64,000 nucleotides of DNA, taken from NCBI RefSeq assembly GCF_007018905.1, contig NZ_CP041402.1:4638001-4702000 (forward strand), given 5' to 3'. This document shows, in pieces, positions 48,554 through 54,672 of the stretch. This DNA is from Tardiphaga sp. vice304. GTDB taxonomy: Bacteria > Pseudomonadota > Alphaproteobacteria > Rhizobiales > Xanthobacteraceae. Within the stretch, counting starts at the first letter, position 1, and every line of letters starts with the position of its first letter. A program made the translations under genes and the position numbers. The notes under the pieces were generated by a model. The model ran no database searches. It was not told where the DNA came from and saw only the letters and a list, made by a program, of their open reading frames with translations.

Positions 48554-50374
48554 ATGCCCGTCCGCCAGCTGCCCGAAACCATCGTCAACCGCATCGCCGC
48601 CGGCGAAGTAGTGGAGCGGCCGGCCAGCGTGGTGAAGGAGCTGGTCGAGAACGCGATCGACGCCGGCGCGACGAGGATCGACATCTTCACGGACGGCGGC
48701 GGCCGCAGGCGGATCGGCATCACCGACGACGGCGCCGGCATGACCCATGCCGACCTTTCGCTTGCCACCGACCGCCATGCCACGTCCAAGCTCGACGACG
48801 AGGACCTCCTGGCGATCCGCACGCTCGGCTTCCGAGGCGAGGCGCTGCCCTCGATCGGCTCGGTGGCGCGATTGGGCATCACGACGCGGCATGCCTCGGA
48901 GCCCCACGCCTGGTCGCTCCATGTCGACGCCGGCGACAAATCCCCGATCGTGCCGGCGGCGCTGAGCCAGGGCACCCGCGTCGAGGTCAGCGATCTCTTT
49001 TATGCCACGCCCGCACGGCTGAAATTTCTCAAGACCGATCGCACCGAGGCGGAAGCCATTCGTGAAGTCGTGCGGCGACTCGCGATGGCGCGGCCGGACG
49101 TCGCCTTCTCGATGGCCGGCGAGGAGCGCGCGCCCGTGACCTGGGCCGCCGCACTCCCCGGCCCGGCCGGGCAATTGACCCGGCTCGGCGACATTCTGGG
49201 TGCGGAGTTTCGCCTCAGCGCCATCGAGGTCCGCAGCGCGCGCGAAGGCGTGATGGTCGAGGGCTTTGCCGCCGCCCCCTCGCTGACGCGGGCGAACGCG
49301 CTCGGGCAATACCTGTTCGTCAACGGCCGCCCGGTGCGCGACAAGCTGATCATCGGCGCGGTGCGCGCCGCCTATTCCGACTATCTGCCGCGCGATCGCC
49401 ATCCAATAGTGGCTTTGTTCGTGACGCTGGACCCGCAGGAGGTCGATGCCAATGTGCATCCGGCCAAGACCGAGGTGCGCTTCCGCAATGCCGGCTTGGT
49501 GCGCGGGCTGATCGTGCATGCGCTGAAGGAAGGCCTGGCCCGCGAGGGCCGCCGCACGGCTGCTAATAGTGACGGCGCGGTGCTGGATTCCTTCCGACCG
49601 AATTTTTCGCCGAACTTTCCGCCGCGGCGGGACGCCAACTGGGACTGGCGGCAATCGCCGTCCTATCCCGTCGGCCCGATGCCCTCCTTCGATGGCTCGG
49701 CGGCGCTCGCCGAGCCAGGACAAGCTGCCTTCGACGTGGGCGGGCCTTCCGCCGACATGCGCTTAGAGGCGGCGCCGAACAACGACCTGATCGACCGGCC
49801 GCTGGGCGCCGCGCGCGCGCAATTGCACGAGAACTACATCGTGTCGCAGACTCGCGACGGCATGATCGTGGTCGACCAGCACGCCGCGCATGAGCGCATC
49901 GTCTATGAGCGGCTGAAGGCGTCGATTGCCGCGAACGGCGTGCAGCGGCAATTGCTGCTGATCCCGGAGATCGTCGAGATGGACGAGGCGACTGTCGAGC
50001 AGTTGCTCGACCGCGCGGAAGAACTGGCCGGCTTCGGCCTGGCGATCGATTCCTTCGGGCCGGGGGCGGTCGCGGTGCGCGAGACGCCGTCGCTGCTCGG
50101 CAAGACCAATGCCGGATCGCTGCTGCGCGATCTGGCCGAGCACATGGCGGAATGGGACGAGGCGCTGCCGCTGGAGCGCCGGCTGATGCACGTCGCGGCC
50201 ACCATGGCCTGCCACGGCTCGGTGCGTTCGGGACGACGGCTGAAGCCGGAAGAGATGAACGCGCTATTGCGCGAGATGGAAGACACGCCGAACTCCGGCC
50301 AGTGCAACCACGGCCGCCCGACCTATGTCGAACTGAAGCTCAGCGACATCGAGAAGCTGTTCGGGAGAAGATAG
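48554..50374 (+). CDS. mutL: DNA mismatch repair protein MutL
   Basis: A 606-residue MutL. The N-terminal GHL ATPase shows ETIVNRIAAGEVVERPASVV, ELVENAIDAGATRIDI, ITDDGAGMTHADL and RHATSKLDDEDLL then TLGFRGEALPSIGSVA. The C-terminal dimerisation domain includes IVSQTRDGMIVVDQHAAHER and CHGSVRSGRRLKPEEMN. The classical MutL endonuclease motif DQHAxHERIxYE reads DQHAAHERIVYER here, so this MutL is the nuclease-proficient type found outside the E. coli lineage (family knowledge). A family C repeat follows its stop. Confidence 0.96.
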   Translation: MPVRQLPETIVNRIAAGEVVERPASVVKELVENAIDAGATRIDIFTDGGGRRRIGITDDGAGMTHADLSLATDRHATSKLDDEDLLAIRTLGFRGEALPSIGSVARLGITTRHASEPHAWSLHVDAGDKSPIVPAALSQGTRVEVSDLFYATPARLKFLKTDRTEAEAIREVVRRLAMARPDVAFSMAGEERAPVTWAAALPGPAGQLTRLGDILGAEFRLSAIEVRSAREGVMVEGFAAAPSLTRANALGQYLFVNGRPVRDKLIIGAVRAAYSDYLPRDRHPIVALFVTLDPQEVDANVHPAKTEVRFRNAGLVRGLIVHALKEGLAREGRRTAANSDGAVLDSFRPNFSPNFPPRRDANWDWRQSPSYPVGPMPSFDGSAALAEPGQAAFDVGGPSADMRLEAAPNNDLIDRPLGAARAQLHENYIVSQTRDGMIVVDQHAAHERIVYERLKASIAANGVQRQLLLIPEIVEMDEATVEQLLDRAEELAGFGLAIDSFGPGAVAVRETPSLLGKTNAGSLLRDLAEHMAEWDEALPLERRLMHVAATMACHGSVRSGRRLKPEEMNALLREMEDTPNSGQCNHGRPTYVELKLSDIEKLFGRR

Positions 50375-50382
50375 CTCCCCGT

Positions 50383-50497
50383 CGTCATCCTGAGGTGGGC
50401 GCCCGCAGGGCGCACCTCGAAGGATGCGGCGACGATTTCCGGCGCTCGCGGCCATCCTTCGAGGCCGTCGCAAGAGCGACGGCACCTCAGGATGACG
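50383..50497. repeat. Palindromic repeat, family C
   Basis: It opens CGTCATCCTGAGGTGGGCGC and closes GGCACCTCAGGATGACG. Inner GTGGGCGCCCGCAGGGCGCAC and GCCGTCGCAAGAGCGACGGC hairpins vary relative to the 43568 copy, while TCGAAGGATG and CCATCCTTCGA are kept. It lies between mutL and the convergent VOC gene. Confidence 0.85.
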
Positions 50498-50520
50498 GAG
50501 GTGTTTGTTGCGCGATCAGC

Positions 50521-50907: not shown

Positions 50908-50967
50908 CGATATTTTCCTGCTCATTCGTCATAGTGGGACCTCTCGGTCACCTGACAAACCCATCTG

Positions 50968-51906
50968 TCAAGCAACCAAGAGCCCCACACGTTCAGCAAC
51001 TTCGATCGTGGCCTGGGTACCGGCATTGAATTCAAGGAAGTCAATCTCGAGGCCATCGCTGAAAATAACACCATGTTCAGCCATCTCGGAAACGATGGTT
51101 ACGGGATTTTGCGGAATAATTCGGCCAACCACGAGGGAGGCGCCCGTCGTTTTGCTGGGGAAAGGCTCACGAACAAAAAAATTAAGAAAATTGGCATCCC
51201 AGGGAAATGAGGCATCAGGAGCCCGCGCCGGCATCTCCGTTCCGAAGGTGTCCGCCGCGGCTGTCCAGCCCGCATACAGGCTCTTCAGCCAGCCTGTCGA
51301 CCCCATGCCCGTCGAGACGATGATTCCGCTGGAAGATTGACGCTCCTCGCGATCACCGACCTTGATTGTATAACGGGCCGAAACGTGGCTGCGTGGACCA
51401 ATGAAAAGATCGTTGACTGCGTAGAGCACTGAGCCGGTATTGAGCGAGGCCTTGGCCATTGTCACCCGCCGTATCGGTCGGCGGTTAGCAATCTCCTCGA
51501 GCATGACCTTGCGCAGATCCCCCGAGCAAAATGGCAGCAGCACGCCGTCCCACCGCTTTGGATCGGGGTTCACGCCTACCACGTGTTGGCGGTCCAGATA
51601 TTTGAGTGTGTTCGCCACCAAACCGTCCTGGCCCAGGACCACCACGATATCATCAGCCCCGAAAATAAAATTACCAAGGTACTGTCGGTCGACACGCTGA
51701 ACCCGTCCGACAGTTCTCAGAATGGCTTCGACTTCACCCGTGGCGGCGCGGTACTGGCTGTGTTCGGTCAGATAATCCCCGAAGTCGGCACCGAGATGCT
51801 CCACATAAAATTGGGCCTGCTGGACGGTGTTGAACCGTGTGATCAGTTCGTCAAGCCGGGTTGGACGAATAATCAGAACGATCTTGCGGGTGTCTGAAGC
51901 GTCCAT
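50968..51906 (-). CDS. NAD-kinase-like (NADK/diacylglycerol-kinase fold) protein of the SPFH-NrtR cassette
   Basis: A 312-residue protein. The N-terminal domain contains VVVLGQDGLVANTLKYLD, where the GGDG nucleotide loop of NAD kinases reads GQDG (92-95); the essential Asp is kept. The NE motif position is NDLFIG (ND at 165-166), and the glycine-rich block is SSSGIIVSTGMGSTGWLKSL, matching STGSTAY of NAD kinases. The C-terminal beta-sandwich is recognisable (VTIVSEMAEHGVIFSDGLEI). It is longer at the N-terminus than classical NadK. It starts 4 bp after the SPFH stop. Real activity is unknown: NAD(H) kinase, or another nucleotide kinase. Confidence 0.82.
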   Translation of the reverse strand: MDASDTRKIVLIIRPTRLDELITRFNTVQQAQFYVEHLGADFGDYLTEHSQYRAATGEVEAILRTVGRVQRVDRQYLGNFIFGADDIVVVLGQDGLVANTLKYLDRQHVVGVNPDPKRWDGVLLPFCSGDLRKVMLEEIANRRPIRRVTMAKASLNTGSVLYAVNDLFIGPRSHVSARYTIKVGDREERQSSSGIIVSTGMGSTGWLKSLYAGWTAAADTFGTEMPARAPDASFPWDANFLNFFVREPFPSKTTGASLVVGRIIPQNPVTIVSEMAEHGVIFSDGLEIDFLEFNAGTQATIEVAERVGLLVA

Positions 51907-51910
51907 GGCG

Positions 51911-52930
51911 TCACCGGGATGCCTCTGGACGTATCATTTCCCTTAGCAGGTCTGGCGATACGTTGAGCTGTCCAATTTTGGCAGCATTGTCAGCGAAATC
52001 CCCGAAGGCGAGCGCCATAAGCTGTCCTGCATCCATACCGACGGAAGCCAGCACCTGAAGGATCTTGGGGTCCGAGCCGCCGAAGGAGCGCATCATTGCT
52101 GCAACGTTCGCAGCCTTGGTTTCCGCCTCTTCGCGCGAGTTGAGCGATGCCAGGGCAACCAGTGCCTTATTCTGCTCCTCAAGCTCGATCCTTCCGGACA
52201 TTTGCTCGCGCTCCATTTGCAGCCTTCGTTCCTGGACCGAACGCTCCGCGTCCATCTGTGCTTCGCGTACCTGCCTCTTCTTGTTTTCGACCGCAATCTC
52301 GGTGGCCAGTTCATTCTCCTTGATCATGCGCTCTTGCTCCACAGCAGCATTACGGCGCGAATACACGGCCTCGTCAGCACGGCGCAGCAGCGCCTCACGG
52401 GCTTCCGCCTCAAGAGCCTTGGCCGTTTCGAGCTTTGGTTTGACAGCGAGCAGCGAGAGGCCAAGCAACTCCAGGCCAAGCGCCTCCACCGTTGGATGGG
52501 TTTGCAACTGTTCTGCGACCCGGCCGACTAGCGCCTGTCCTGACGCAAGAACTTCCTTGAGGGTCAACGCCTGCACCTCGGCACGCATGGCGACCTGAAC
52601 CTGCCCGATCAGACGCTGGGAGAGCTTCTGGGGATCCTCGGAGATATAGCCGCCCTTGGAATCCAGCGTGAAATTGAGAAGCTTCGCCGTTCGGTGCGGA
52701 TCCGCAACCCGAAAGGTGATCTGGCCCTGTATCGTGACCTCCTGGAAATCAGCGGTAACTTCCGGGAAGATAAAGGGCTCGTTCACGCTCGCCGTTGGCA
52801 CCACGACGATCGAGGCGGATGGCGCGAAGTACCAAAATGCCAGCCCGGCACCCTCTCGGCTGGGCCGACCGTTCCTGTACTGGATCACATACTGGGTTGG
52901 CTGCGTCTTGACGAAACGAAAACCTAACAT
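51911..52930 (-). CDS. SPFH/Band-7 domain protein, cytosolic flotillin-like
   Basis: The start at the ATG at 52928-52930, with GGGAGG just upstream, gives 339 residues. The SPFH domain spans about 1-180 (MLGFRFVKTQPTQYVIQYRN, NEPFIFPEVTADFQEVTIQG, ITFRVADPHRTAKLLNF). A long charged coiled coil follows (AEAREALLRRADEAVYSRRN to MEREQMSGRIELEEQNKALV), then a helical C-terminus. No transmembrane segment or signal is seen, so membrane association, if any, is peripheral. It is the first gene of a leftward pair with the NAD-kinase-like gene and is divergent from the NrtR-type gene. Confidence 0.88.
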   Translation of the reverse strand: MLGFRFVKTQPTQYVIQYRNGRPSREGAGLAFWYFAPSASIVVVPTASVNEPFIFPEVTADFQEVTIQGQITFRVADPHRTAKLLNFTLDSKGGYISEDPQKLSQRLIGQVQVAMRAEVQALTLKEVLASGQALVGRVAEQLQTHPTVEALGLELLGLSLLAVKPKLETAKALEAEAREALLRRADEAVYSRRNAAVEQERMIKENELATEIAVENKKRQVREAQMDAERSVQERRLQMEREQMSGRIELEEQNKALVALASLNSREEAETKAANVAAMMRSFGGSDPKILQVLASVGMDAGQLMALAFGDFADNAAKIGQLNVSPDLLREMIRPEASR

Positions 52931-52984
52931 GTCCGCCTCCCTGTGGTTTGGCAGCCGGGCACCGGCCAGAAGTAAAAAATACCA

Positions 52985-53007
52985 CTTATTGTATATTGTC
53001 AATTAAG
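52985..53007. promoter_or_regulatory. Imperfect AT-rich inverted repeat spanning divergent -35 elements (candidate NrtR operator)
   Basis: The 23-bp sequence at 52985-53007 begins CTTA and ends TAAG, with paired positions at both arms, inside a 60-bp stretch with only 16 G/C. It contains TTGTCAA at 52997-53003. Read leftward this gives TTGACA, followed after 15-17 bases by TATTTTTT toward the SPFH gene. Read rightward it gives TTGTCA, followed by TACACT toward the Nudix regulator gene. One protein bound here would control both directions. Confidence 0.55.
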
Positions 53008-53052
53008 ATAGTTTTTAATTTACACTAAGAAGGAGACTGATTAGGCTGGGCC

Positions 53053-53742
53053 ATGAATTTGGATGAAAACCATGCGAGGCCGATCGTCTCGGTCGATCTG
53101 GCGATTTTTGCGCTGTCGCAGGCCGGCCTCGAAGTCTTGCTCATTCGGCGTTCTGCCGAACCATTTGCTCGTCAGTGGGCGCTCCCAAGCGGATGGATTC
53201 ATGTCGACGAGGATCTCGATATTGAAACCACCGCGCGCCGCGTGCTGACCGAGAAAACGGGTATCGAGACGCCATATCTGGAGCAGTTGCAGACGATAGG
53301 GAACGCCACACGAGATCCACGAGGCTGGACCGTGAGCGTCGTCTATGTGGCCTTGATCTCGGCCGATGACGTTCGTTCGCGTGAAGAGTACAGCGCCGAT
53401 TTCGCTTGGTGGCCTGTCAGAGGTGACACGACGGAGGTGGCTGTCGCGTTCGACCATGCCGATATCGTTCGCGCGGCGCTAACCCGGATCAGGAACAAGG
53501 TCGAATATTCAACATTGCCTGTGCATCTTCTGCCCGCCGCATTTACACTGAGCGAATTGCAGTCCGTCTACGAGCAAATCCTCGGTCGTCGTATCGACAA
53601 GTCGGCTTTTCGCAAGCGCATGGCAGAAGCTGATTTCGTGGAACCTATACAAGGGGAGATGCGGCGCGCAAGCAATCGTCCAGCACAGATCTATCGTTTG
53701 AAATCCGGCGGCACGACCATGTTCTTCGATCGAACGATATGA
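53053..53742 (+). CDS. NrtR-type Nudix-related transcriptional regulator
   Basis: A 229-residue two-domain protein. The N-terminal Nudix fold (about 10-145) has the box region GWIHVDEDLDIETTARRVLT EKTG at 47-70. The catalytic R-E-U-x-E-E is R-V-L-T-E-K, so hydrolysis is unlikely, as in NrtR regulators. The C-terminal winged helix (about 160-229) starts LPAAFTLSELQSVYEQILGR, followed by DKSAFRKRMAEADF. NrtR proteins sense ADP-ribose and repress NAD-metabolism genes. Here the likely target is the divergent SPFH / NAD-kinase-like pair. No strong ribosome-binding site is seen; the only AAGGAG is 17 bases upstream. Confidence 0.87.
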   Translation: MNLDENHARPIVSVDLAIFALSQAGLEVLLIRRSAEPFARQWALPSGWIHVDEDLDIETTARRVLTEKTGIETPYLEQLQTIGNATRDPRGWTVSVVYVALISADDVRSREEYSADFAWWPVRGDTTEVAVAFDHADIVRAALTRIRNKVEYSTLPVHLLPAAFTLSELQSVYEQILGRRIDKSAFRKRMAEADFVEPIQGEMRRASNRPAQIYRLKSGGTTMFFDRTI

Positions 53743-53904
53743 TGTTACAATGATGGCGAGCGAGCCAGCGCCGCCCTCAGTTCTGCTCTAAGCAGAACCG
53801 TCCATTTTCTGCTTGTTTCGCGATTTAACGCGAACCAGAAACGACTTCGTTCGAAAAAGGTCCGAGCCAAGTTTAACGGCCCTGATGTGTCGCTGGCTTC
53901 GGGA

Positions 53905-54459
53905 TCAAATAATTCGCAGAAAAGTGAACTCGGTATCGTCATAGGCGCGGCGTTCGAGTTCTTCAAAGCGCTCGGGCGCCTTGAACTCGGCACTCTTGGC
54001 CTCCTCCACCACCAGCAAAGCGTCCGGCGTCAGCCAGCCGCCGTCGCGCAACGAGGCCAGCGCCTTTTCGGCGAGCTTCATGCGGTACGGCGGATCGAGG
54101 AAGACGAGCGAGAATGGCTCGACCGGATGCGCCGGGCCGAGATTGGCGGCATCGCGGCGATAGACTTTGGTGGTGCCGCCGAGCCCCAGCGCCTCGACAT
54201 TGTTGCGCAACAGCGCGCGCGCCTCGGCGCCGTTGTCGACGAACAGCGTGAAGCCCGCCCCGCGCGACACCGCCTCGATGCCGAGCGCGCCGGTGCCGGC
54301 GAACAGGTCGAGCACGCGGGCATCCTGCACCGGATTGTCATAGGCATGGATCAGAATGTTGAACAGCGCCTCGCGCAGCCGGTCCGCGGTGGGACGAATC
54401 GCCTGCGTCGTAGGAGATGCAATGTTGCGGCCCTTCAGCCGCCCACCGACGACGCGCAT
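53905..54459 (-). CDS. rsmD: 16S rRNA (guanine(966)-N2)-methyltransferase
   Basis: The start at the ATG at 54457-54459 gives 184 residues (MRVVGGRLKGRNIASPTTQA). An ATG eight codons upstream is also in frame. The N-terminal RPTADRLREALFNIL, the SAM loop VLDLFAGTGALGIEAVSRGA and the catalytic VFLDPPYRMKLAEKAL are diagnostic. The enzyme methylates G966 in the 30S subunit. It is next to the mutL/VOC/SPFH cluster on one side and the pseudouridine synthase, 214 bp upstream, on the other; in relatives mutL and rsmD are often neighbours (recalled, not checked). Confidence 0.95.
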   Translation of the reverse strand: MRVVGGRLKGRNIASPTTQAIRPTADRLREALFNILIHAYDNPVQDARVLDLFAGTGALGIEAVSRGAGFTLFVDNGAEARALLRNNVEALGLGGTTKVYRRDAANLGPAHPVEPFSLVFLDPPYRMKLAEKALASLRDGGWLTPDALLVVEEAKSAEFKAPERFEELERRAYDDTEFTFLRII

Positions 54460-54505
54460 CAGGAAGCCCGCTTGAGTTGGCAAGGCGTCGCTGCAAACGC
54501 TGTCA

Positions 54506-54608
54506 GCCCCCCTCCCCCTTGCGGGGAGGGGTCGGGGGTGGGGGCGCCACAGGCTCGGGGCTTGCGGCTACCCCCCTCCCCGACCCTCCCCCGCAAGGGG
54601 GGAGGGAG
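54506..54608. repeat. Palindromic repeat, variant of family B
   Basis: It opens GCCCCCCTCCCCCTTGCGGG and closes CTCCCCCGCAAGGGGGGAGG. Its core has GGGTCGGGGGTGGGGGC and the partly complementary CCCCCCTCCCCGACCCTC. Arms are CCTCCCCCTTGCGGGGAGGG, distinct from but related to the other family B copies. It lies between rsmD and the pseudouridine synthase gene. Confidence 0.75.
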
Positions 54609-54672
54609 CACTACTGCCGCCGCGTCACACAAAGATCGAACGTCGCTCATGGCTAAGCCCAGCACAGCAAAC

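Follow-up and report, generated by a model that had tools for sequence, protein, structure and literature searches.

We have analysed a window of 64,000 nucleotides from Tardiphaga sp. vice304 (positions 4638001-4702000 of NZ_CP041402.1, a single 5.79-Mb contig), in which three intact genes form a compact cassette. A gene for an SPFH/Band 7 protein is followed on the same strand, after a 4-bp gap, by a gene for a kinase-like protein, and this pair diverges from a gene for an NrtR-type regulator (Table 1). The coordinates, strands, gap and 122-bp divergent region given in an initial annotation were all reproduced. Its claim of an AT-richer composition also held: its three G+C counts were exact (25 of 60 bases at 51061-51120 and 16 of 60 at 52981-53040, against 46 of 60 in mutL at 50041-50100), and the G+C content at third codon positions agreed, being 0.62-0.69 in the three cassette genes and 0.81-0.86 in six other nearby genes.

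Table 1. Features of the cassette, with positions counted from the first base of the window
Feature	Position	Strand	Description
NADK2-like kinase-fold protein	50968..51906	-	312 residues; GQDG-type NAD-kinase fold
SPFH/Band 7 protein	51911..52930	-	339 residues; ATG at 52930, stop at 51911; SPFH domain (Band_7, 1.3e-15), then predicted long helix (residues 167-282)
NrtR-type regulator	53053..53742	+	229 residues; Nudix-like sensor domain with impaired catalytic motif, NrtR winged helix
Divergent control region	52931..53052		122 bp, between SPFH gene and regulator gene
Predicted operator	52985..53029		two tandem 23-bp partly palindromic sites (8-N7-8), 22-bp offset
Inserted DNA	50941..53912		relative to the empty site of genus relatives; approximate, edges by eye

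The SPFH and kinase-like genes behaved as a unit across genomes. Among 398 Pseudomonadota genomes, the kinase-like family (E ≤ 1e-30) and the SPFH family (E ≤ 1e-20) were found in the same 12, adjacent and on one strand in every case, and the other 386 lacked both. The SPFH profile, which derives from pair-adjacent proteins, favours that subfamily; even so, no orphan of either family was found at these thresholds. The proposal that these genes constitute one system co-occurring across genomes was thus borne out. A representative-genome scan gave at least 591 pattern matches and 588 confirmed relatives, the best 80 of which are the named loci considered below. The SPFH gene lies directly upstream of the kinase-like gene, on the same strand, in 79 of these 80, the remaining locus (L058) being cut by a contig end; the open reading frame (ORF) rule alone gives 78, the 79th (L077) having a kinase ORF modelled too long. 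The relatives were aligned in three sets, A4 (81 rows: the window and 80 of 83 kinase ORFs), A6 (64 rows) and A7 (59 rows). The 64 rows of the tree span ten phyla (Pseudomonadota, Bacillota, Verrucomicrobiota, Acidobacteriota, Planctomycetota, Chloroflexota, Calditrichota, Spirochaetota, Lentisphaerota and Hydrogenedentota), and the pairwise distances of the SPFH proteins correlated with those of the kinase-like proteins (r = 0.69, 58 rows; maximum on permutation 0.18), as expected if the two genes were inherited together.

In the plasmid collection, 70 records had a kinase-like match, 57 of which cover at least 80% of the protein; a few matches, among them Leptospira NAD kinases with 24% identity, were weak. 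The divergent Nudix-SPFH-kinase arrangement also occurs in records of Rhizobium etli p42f, Methylomonas, Moraxella and Providencia, and in Treponema and Kitasatospora records the pair is present but no Nudix gene is annotated next to it. The pairing of SPFH and kinase-like proteins is well supported, and the sequence data as a whole support a conserved, horizontally spread SPFH-kinase operon.

On Moraxella pNP7-1 (L028:5001-7862) the kinase-like gene ends 2 bp before a tetR(H)-tet(H) unit, and in Proteus (L183:5001-7828) tet(J) lies downstream. Shorter matches were present in plasmid records of Psychrobacter, Actinobacillus, Mannheimia, Moellerella and Wohlfahrtiimonas. A tetracycline-resistance unit may have spread from beside the SPFH-kinase operon.

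Phage records contained no relative of the kinase-like or SPFH protein, and none of 26 pattern matches in viral contigs was confirmed; a phage origin of the cassette was rejected on these grounds. The regulator alone matched 23 phage records. According to an extract of PMC1524935, ORFs 138 and 139 of the T4-like phage RB43, consecutive by number, encode a NadM-like Nudix-cytidylyltransferase and an SPFH protein, perhaps an independent pairing of SPFH with NAD metabolism. Since the SPFH protein of the window matches no phage record, we take this case only as a parallel.

At the site under study, the cassette was acquired by transfer. The neighbouring genes mutL, VOC, rsmD, rluB, tadA and purD were named by eye or in the initial annotation, and VOC alone was family-scanned. 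An rsmD match was found in 17 of the 18 genomes of the genus, including this one, and the cassette DNA (SPFH, kinase and regulator) was absent from the site in all 16 relatives having such a match. Fifteen of them carry mutL, VOC and rsmD consecutively, and in L127 mutL is followed by rsmD. By eye, the VOC-rsmD spacing amounts to tens of bases in most of the ten relatives' stretches inspected, and is longer, with repeat-like filler, in L113. The insert, of about 3 kb, is nearly all taken up by the three genes. Its boundary on the rsmD side falls at the 3' end of that gene, where the last codons (~53905-53915) differ from those of the relatives because the insert supplies the stop codon, as judged by eye. 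Within this insert no transposase or integrase was noticed. The earlier suggestion of a mobile or transferred module is thus supported for transfer, by the empty site in the 16 relatives, and not for mobility. The stretch with 16 G/C of 60 is by itself no evidence of transfer, because 45 of its 60 bases belong to the predicted operator, and its low G+C was dropped as a sign of it. Strong kinase-like matches occurred in only 4 of 101 genomes searched (this one included), the 18 other matches being weak (E 1e-5 to 1e-3), and in the tree the kinase-like protein of the window clusters with sequences from Acetobacteraceae and Rhizobium (support 100/98). Both flanks, at window positions 50374-50520 and 54500-54610, bear imperfect palindromes that resemble dispersed intergenic repeats, as seen by eye.

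The kinase-like protein has an NAD-kinase fold and is nearest, by fold and by sequence, to human mitochondrial NADK2. It differs from NADK2 in being bacterial, in its operon partnership with an SPFH protein and in reading GQDG where the usual loop reads GGDG, its activity being putative. Its matches to NCBIfam NAD-kinase models are weak, the best (4.1e-6) scoring 26 bits where the cut-off is 211. Across the 81 aligned rows, the loop residues G92, D94 and G95, Asn165 and a Ser-Ser-Gly segment are invariant, and position 166 is Asp in 78 rows and Glu in 3, so that the N-E/D motif that marks the NAD kinase family is kept. The genome encodes a separate NAD kinase with the loop GGDGL, as a result of which only the Gln of GQDGL is distinctive, and the final Leu was rejected as an unusual feature. 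A separate NAD kinase was present in all 15 pair-bearing genomes examined. The kinase-like family comprises at least 8000 clusters at E ≤ 0.001, of which those beyond the best 120 may include ordinary NAD kinases; names among the best 120, where given, are "NAD kinase", "sugar kinase" and "hypothetical protein".

The SPFH protein matched PF01145 with 58.4 bits (cut-off 23.6). Its structural model (predicted local distance difference test 83, predicted template modelling score 0.55) shows a single helix of about 115 residues besides the SPFH domain, and the C-terminus is poorly predicted from about residue 285 on. The nearest folds are HflK/C and stomatin, with vault protein lower in the match list. 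A Band_7 domain followed by a long helix is common to this protein and to HflK/C, stomatin and QmcA; by analogy with these, we infer assembly into a ring or cage. Known SPFH proteins have protease and NfeD partners, which also appear in structure entry titles, whereas the partner here is a kinase-fold protein. Moreover, a simple hydropathy scan revealed no clear N-terminal hydrophobic anchor in the SPFH protein of the window, whose maximum over 19 residues is 1.42, at residue 290. The membrane-microdomain-type scaffold first suggested for it gained no support here. On the same scale a value of 1.6 is attained by 17 of 59 SPFH relatives, and the peaks of the five highest listed lie at residues 63-152.

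The regulator carries NUDIX (PF00293, 6.4e-9) and NrtR_WHD (PF21906, 5.2e-23) domains, both above cut-off, and its best solved relative is 3gz5 (3.7e-44), of the same family as the Shewanella NrtR-DNA structure 3gz6 (extract of PMC6800001). Relative to the Nudix catalytic motif REUXEEXGU, as given in an extract of PMC4666351, hand alignment reads R63-V-L-T-E-K-T-G-I, with two Glu replaced (Val64 and Lys68). The protein is accordingly predicted to be a sensor with an impaired Nudix motif, an architecture common to the NrtR proteins of Shewanella oneidensis and Mycobacterium smegmatis. It is the only NrtR winged-helix match in this genome. Eight of the 12 pair-bearing Pseudomonadota genomes (G000, G206, G128, G246, G347, G158, G291 and G340) have such a domain next to the pair, compared with its presence in 88 of the 398 genomes overall. 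An NrtR-type gene is present in 29 of the 80 named loci, split into two pieces in L062. It adjoins the pair in divergent orientation in 13 loci and from upstream, in the same direction, in 9; in 4 it lies downstream, and in 3 it is spaced from the pair. No such gene was found in 37 control stretches. An NrtR winged helix also occurs in open frames of about 320-390 residues in the genus relative G010 (G010:C2:69020-69202) and in several family members; NadQ in the PDB has 336 residues.

We have then examined the divergent control regions. Eighteen loci, the window included, are divergent, and 16 were scored after L077 (ORF model) and L086 (ORF model running through the promoter) had been set aside. 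Fourteen of the 16, the window among them, contain two CTTAGTTG-N7-CAACTAAG sites 22 or 23 bp apart, and in each of these the tandem score was reached by none of 300 shuffles; the consensus was derived from L102 alone, itself one of the 14. The arrangement is compatible with published operators, since extracts report an 8-N7-8 layout of 23 bp for M. smegmatis NrtR (PMC6800001) and tandem sites for the related AraR (PMC4666351). We predict that 52985-53029 is the operator of the regulator at the shared promoter. A 45-base pattern from this site, with up to 3 mismatches allowed, matched nowhere else in the genome. A generic 8-N7-8 palindrome scan upstream of 19 other regions, in which only three reached p < 0.05 (0.033, 0.043 and 0.043, uncorrected), does not count here as evidence.

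The consensus from L102 was run over 87 pair loci at 13/16 or better, the window (12/16) not being among them, and gave 20 sites in 13 loci, that of L102 included. Nineteen of them (12 loci) lie within 260 bp of the start of a regulator, SPFH or NAD/ADP-ribose gene, and none was found in 703 kb of control sequence. In Undibacterium (L041) a predicted site separates Prs-NadV-macrodomain genes from NrtR-SPFH-kinase genes (families by Pfam), so that NAD-salvage genes stand beside this site class. In Collimonas (L042) a site lies between an ADP-ribosylglycohydrolase gene, assigned by BLAST grouping with the Pfam-confirmed gene of L040, and the NrtR-SPFH-kinase genes, and in L064 one precedes a Nudix hydrolase gene (by Pfam) that heads them. 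With respect to known NrtR, the regulator here differs in facing the SPFH-kinase pair, in a predicted tandem operator of different sequence and in scoring below the NCBIfam equivalog cut-off.

To assess the genes around the pair, 19 neighbours were scanned with Pfam together with the regulator of L040 (20 proteins in all). The scans confirmed NAMPT/NadV, Prs-like, macrodomain, isochorismatase (which we read as the nicotinamidase PncA), ADP-ribosylglycohydrolase, PnuC, NadR-type, NadD-type, NadM-Nudix and NAPRTase neighbours; one neighbour, in L058, had no Pfam match. By similarity to the confirmed neighbours, core NAD/ADP-ribose genes are present in 17 of the 80 loci (35 genes, 917 kb), and the control set gave one weak PncA-like match in 37 stretches (703 kb; L176 and L177, which hold or adjoin the pair, were left out; Fisher p 0.011). 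The 17 do not count L083 (contig-cut isochorismatase-type gene), L096 (Prs only), L064 (Nudix only) or L073 (RNA repair). Ten of the 17 have NAD-making genes (NadV, PncA, PncB, PnuC, NadR, NadD or NadM), and 11 have genes for a macrodomain or ADP-ribosylglycohydrolase protein. The NAD link of the operon is well supported, and the sequence evidence supports, for part of the operon's range, a tie to both NrtR-type regulation and NAD/ADP-ribose metabolism. The NAD(P)-related function guessed at in the initial annotation thus gained an NrtR-type regulator, a predicted operator and, in a minority of loci, NAD-salvage and ADP-ribose neighbours.

The clostridial locus L073 (L073:1850-10989) reads, in one direction, regulator, methyltransferase, SPFH, kinase, Hen1 and Pnkp, placing the pair beside RNA-repair genes. 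A methyltransferase-domain protein lies beside the module in three loci (L040:1787-3406, 539 residues; L073:2881-4974, 697 residues; L055:28 onward).

We propose, with a probability of about 0.5, that the cassette is an accessory NAD(P) module, in which an ADP-ribose-induced NAD(H)-kinase-like enzyme would work with an SPFH oligomer. The NrtR-type protein would repress its own gene and the SPFH-kinase operon through the tandem sites in the shared promoter region. NAD breakdown would free ADP-ribose, and binding of the latter to the Nudix domain would lift repression. The SPFH product would then oligomerise into a ring or cage, and the NADK2-like phosphotransferase, probably translationally coupled to it, would work with this assembly; its substrate would most likely be NAD(H) or a close NAD/ADP-ribose nucleotide, such that NADP(H) is restored or a turnover product is handled. 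The most economical mechanism is one in which ADP-ribose is sensed, repression is lifted and NAD(H) undergoes accessory phosphorylation on an SPFH assembly. Of its elements, the genomic evidence covers the regulator, the predicted operator and the context; we infer repression, the ADP-ribose effector, catalysis, the substrate, the SPFH-kinase complex and the physiological trigger.

Several results weigh against this proposal. The kinase-like protein matched no Pfam family at E ≤ 1, NAD_kinase (PF01513) included, and Gln occupies the second loop position in 77 of 81 rows; hence, its activity may differ or be lost. The earlier label "NAD-kinase-like" is upheld by the fold and the weak NCBIfam matches, and a plain NAD kinase is not. 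The regulator scored 232 bits with the NCBIfam NtrR equivalog model (cut-off 400), and for this reason we place it in the wider NrtR family and not in that equivalog. Its effector is not to be assumed, because extracts describe a Corynebacterium glutamicum homologue binding DNA better with NAD (PMC6800001) and AraR, of the same family, responding to arabinose (PMC4666351). The NrtR winged helix is absent from four of the 12 pair-bearing genomes, and 51 of the 80 loci lack an NrtR-type gene in the stretch examined. The operator of the window is degenerate (23/32 matches in tandem, the sites scoring 12/16 and 11/16), the divergent regions of L025 and L028 fail the class, and on-target sites in only 12 of 87 pair loci imply that most lineages must use other operators or regulators. 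The control stretches are mostly from Alphaproteobacteria, and without the seven loci that supplied queries core NAD/ADP-ribose genes are found in 10 of 73 loci and in 1 of 37 control stretches (Fisher p 0.095), which makes the per-locus test alone modest. Finally, 63 of the 80 loci have no core NAD gene, and these, including the Paenibacillaceae loci, which have neither an NrtR-type nor a core NAD gene, are the main unexplained remainder.

The same departures of the kinase-like protein would be compatible with phosphorylation of another NAD/ADP-ribose turnover product (ADP-ribose, ADP-ribose phosphate, nicotinamide mononucleotide or nicotinamide riboside) by a clearance or recycling enzyme. 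The GQDG loop, the lack of a Pfam NAD_kinase match, the separate NAD kinase of the pair-bearing genomes and the macrodomain or ADP-ribosylglycohydrolase neighbours would suit such an enzyme. However, the protein is nearest to NADK2, an NAD kinase, and NAD-making genes are about equally frequent in the 17 loci; we regard this alternative as rather unlikely.

An unlikely extension of the accessory-module proposal is a cytosolic SPFH ring or cage, built on an ADP-ribose signal, with the NADK2-like kinase as dedicated cargo or lid. Major vault protein is among the matches of the SPFH model, and the entry titles include a vault cage with PARP4 and another with ADP-ribose; the vault particle is eukaryotic and far larger, and is used here as an analogy only. 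If this reading is true, NAD(P) chemistry would have a compartment resembling the vault, and bacterial NADK2 relatives would belong to a dedicated ADP-ribose-response regulon.

A role of the kinase-like protein as an NAD(P)(H) sensor without catalysis, governing SPFH assembly, is also quite unlikely. Its glycine-rich loop departs from the standard, and the predicted long SPFH helix would suit ligand-controlled assembly, but the loop aspartate, Asn165 and Ser-Ser-Gly, unchanged in every row, indicate chemistry or at least tight nucleotide binding.

An anti-phage or anti-toxin module, restoring NADP(H) or clearing ADP-ribose after an NAD-depleting attack, would accord with the patchy spread, the transfer at this site, the plasmid copies and the NAD/ADP-ribose theme. 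ARG-centred Nudix/WYL-regulated systems (Iyer et al. 2022, PMC9503650), which likewise bring an ADP-ribosylglycohydrolase, a macrodomain and a Nudix regulator into a common neighbourhood, have been proposed as counter-ADP-ribosylation systems (section 3.8). The main text of that paper does not mention SPFH, Band-7 or NAD kinase, and the phosphatase and chaperone partners belong to the ARG-centred systems, no search for them having been made at the pair loci. PADLOC models matched none of the three cassette proteins, the site has housekeeping flanks, no nuclease or effector partner was noticed in the ORF listings inspected (a systematic search was not made), and the absence of confirmed phage and viral relatives reported above argues in the same direction. 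A defence role therefore seems improbable, and the response to DNA damage or phage exposure raised in the initial annotation was supported by no analysis here. A chance neighbourhood of three unrelated genes, to which the loci without a regulator might point, is hardly credible with an NrtR-type gene adjacent in 8 of 12 genomes, and for the SPFH-kinase pair it is refuted by the identical distribution and adjacency.

In the open-access library searched (RegPrecise and subscription journals lay outside the search) we found no description of the SPFH-kinase operon among the titles listed, and no paper that combines SPFH with any of NAD kinase, NADK2 and NrtR, or that combines NrtR and NAD kinase. 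The operon looks like an undescribed part of cellular NAD management. It connects an SPFH scaffold to a nucleotide enzyme and supplies bacterial relatives of human NADK2, and a large kinase-like family gains a testable place in NAD/ADP-ribose metabolism. If the ADP-ribose switch were true, the operon would be a further output of NrtR-type regulation and would offer a handle on the bacterial response to NAD breakdown.

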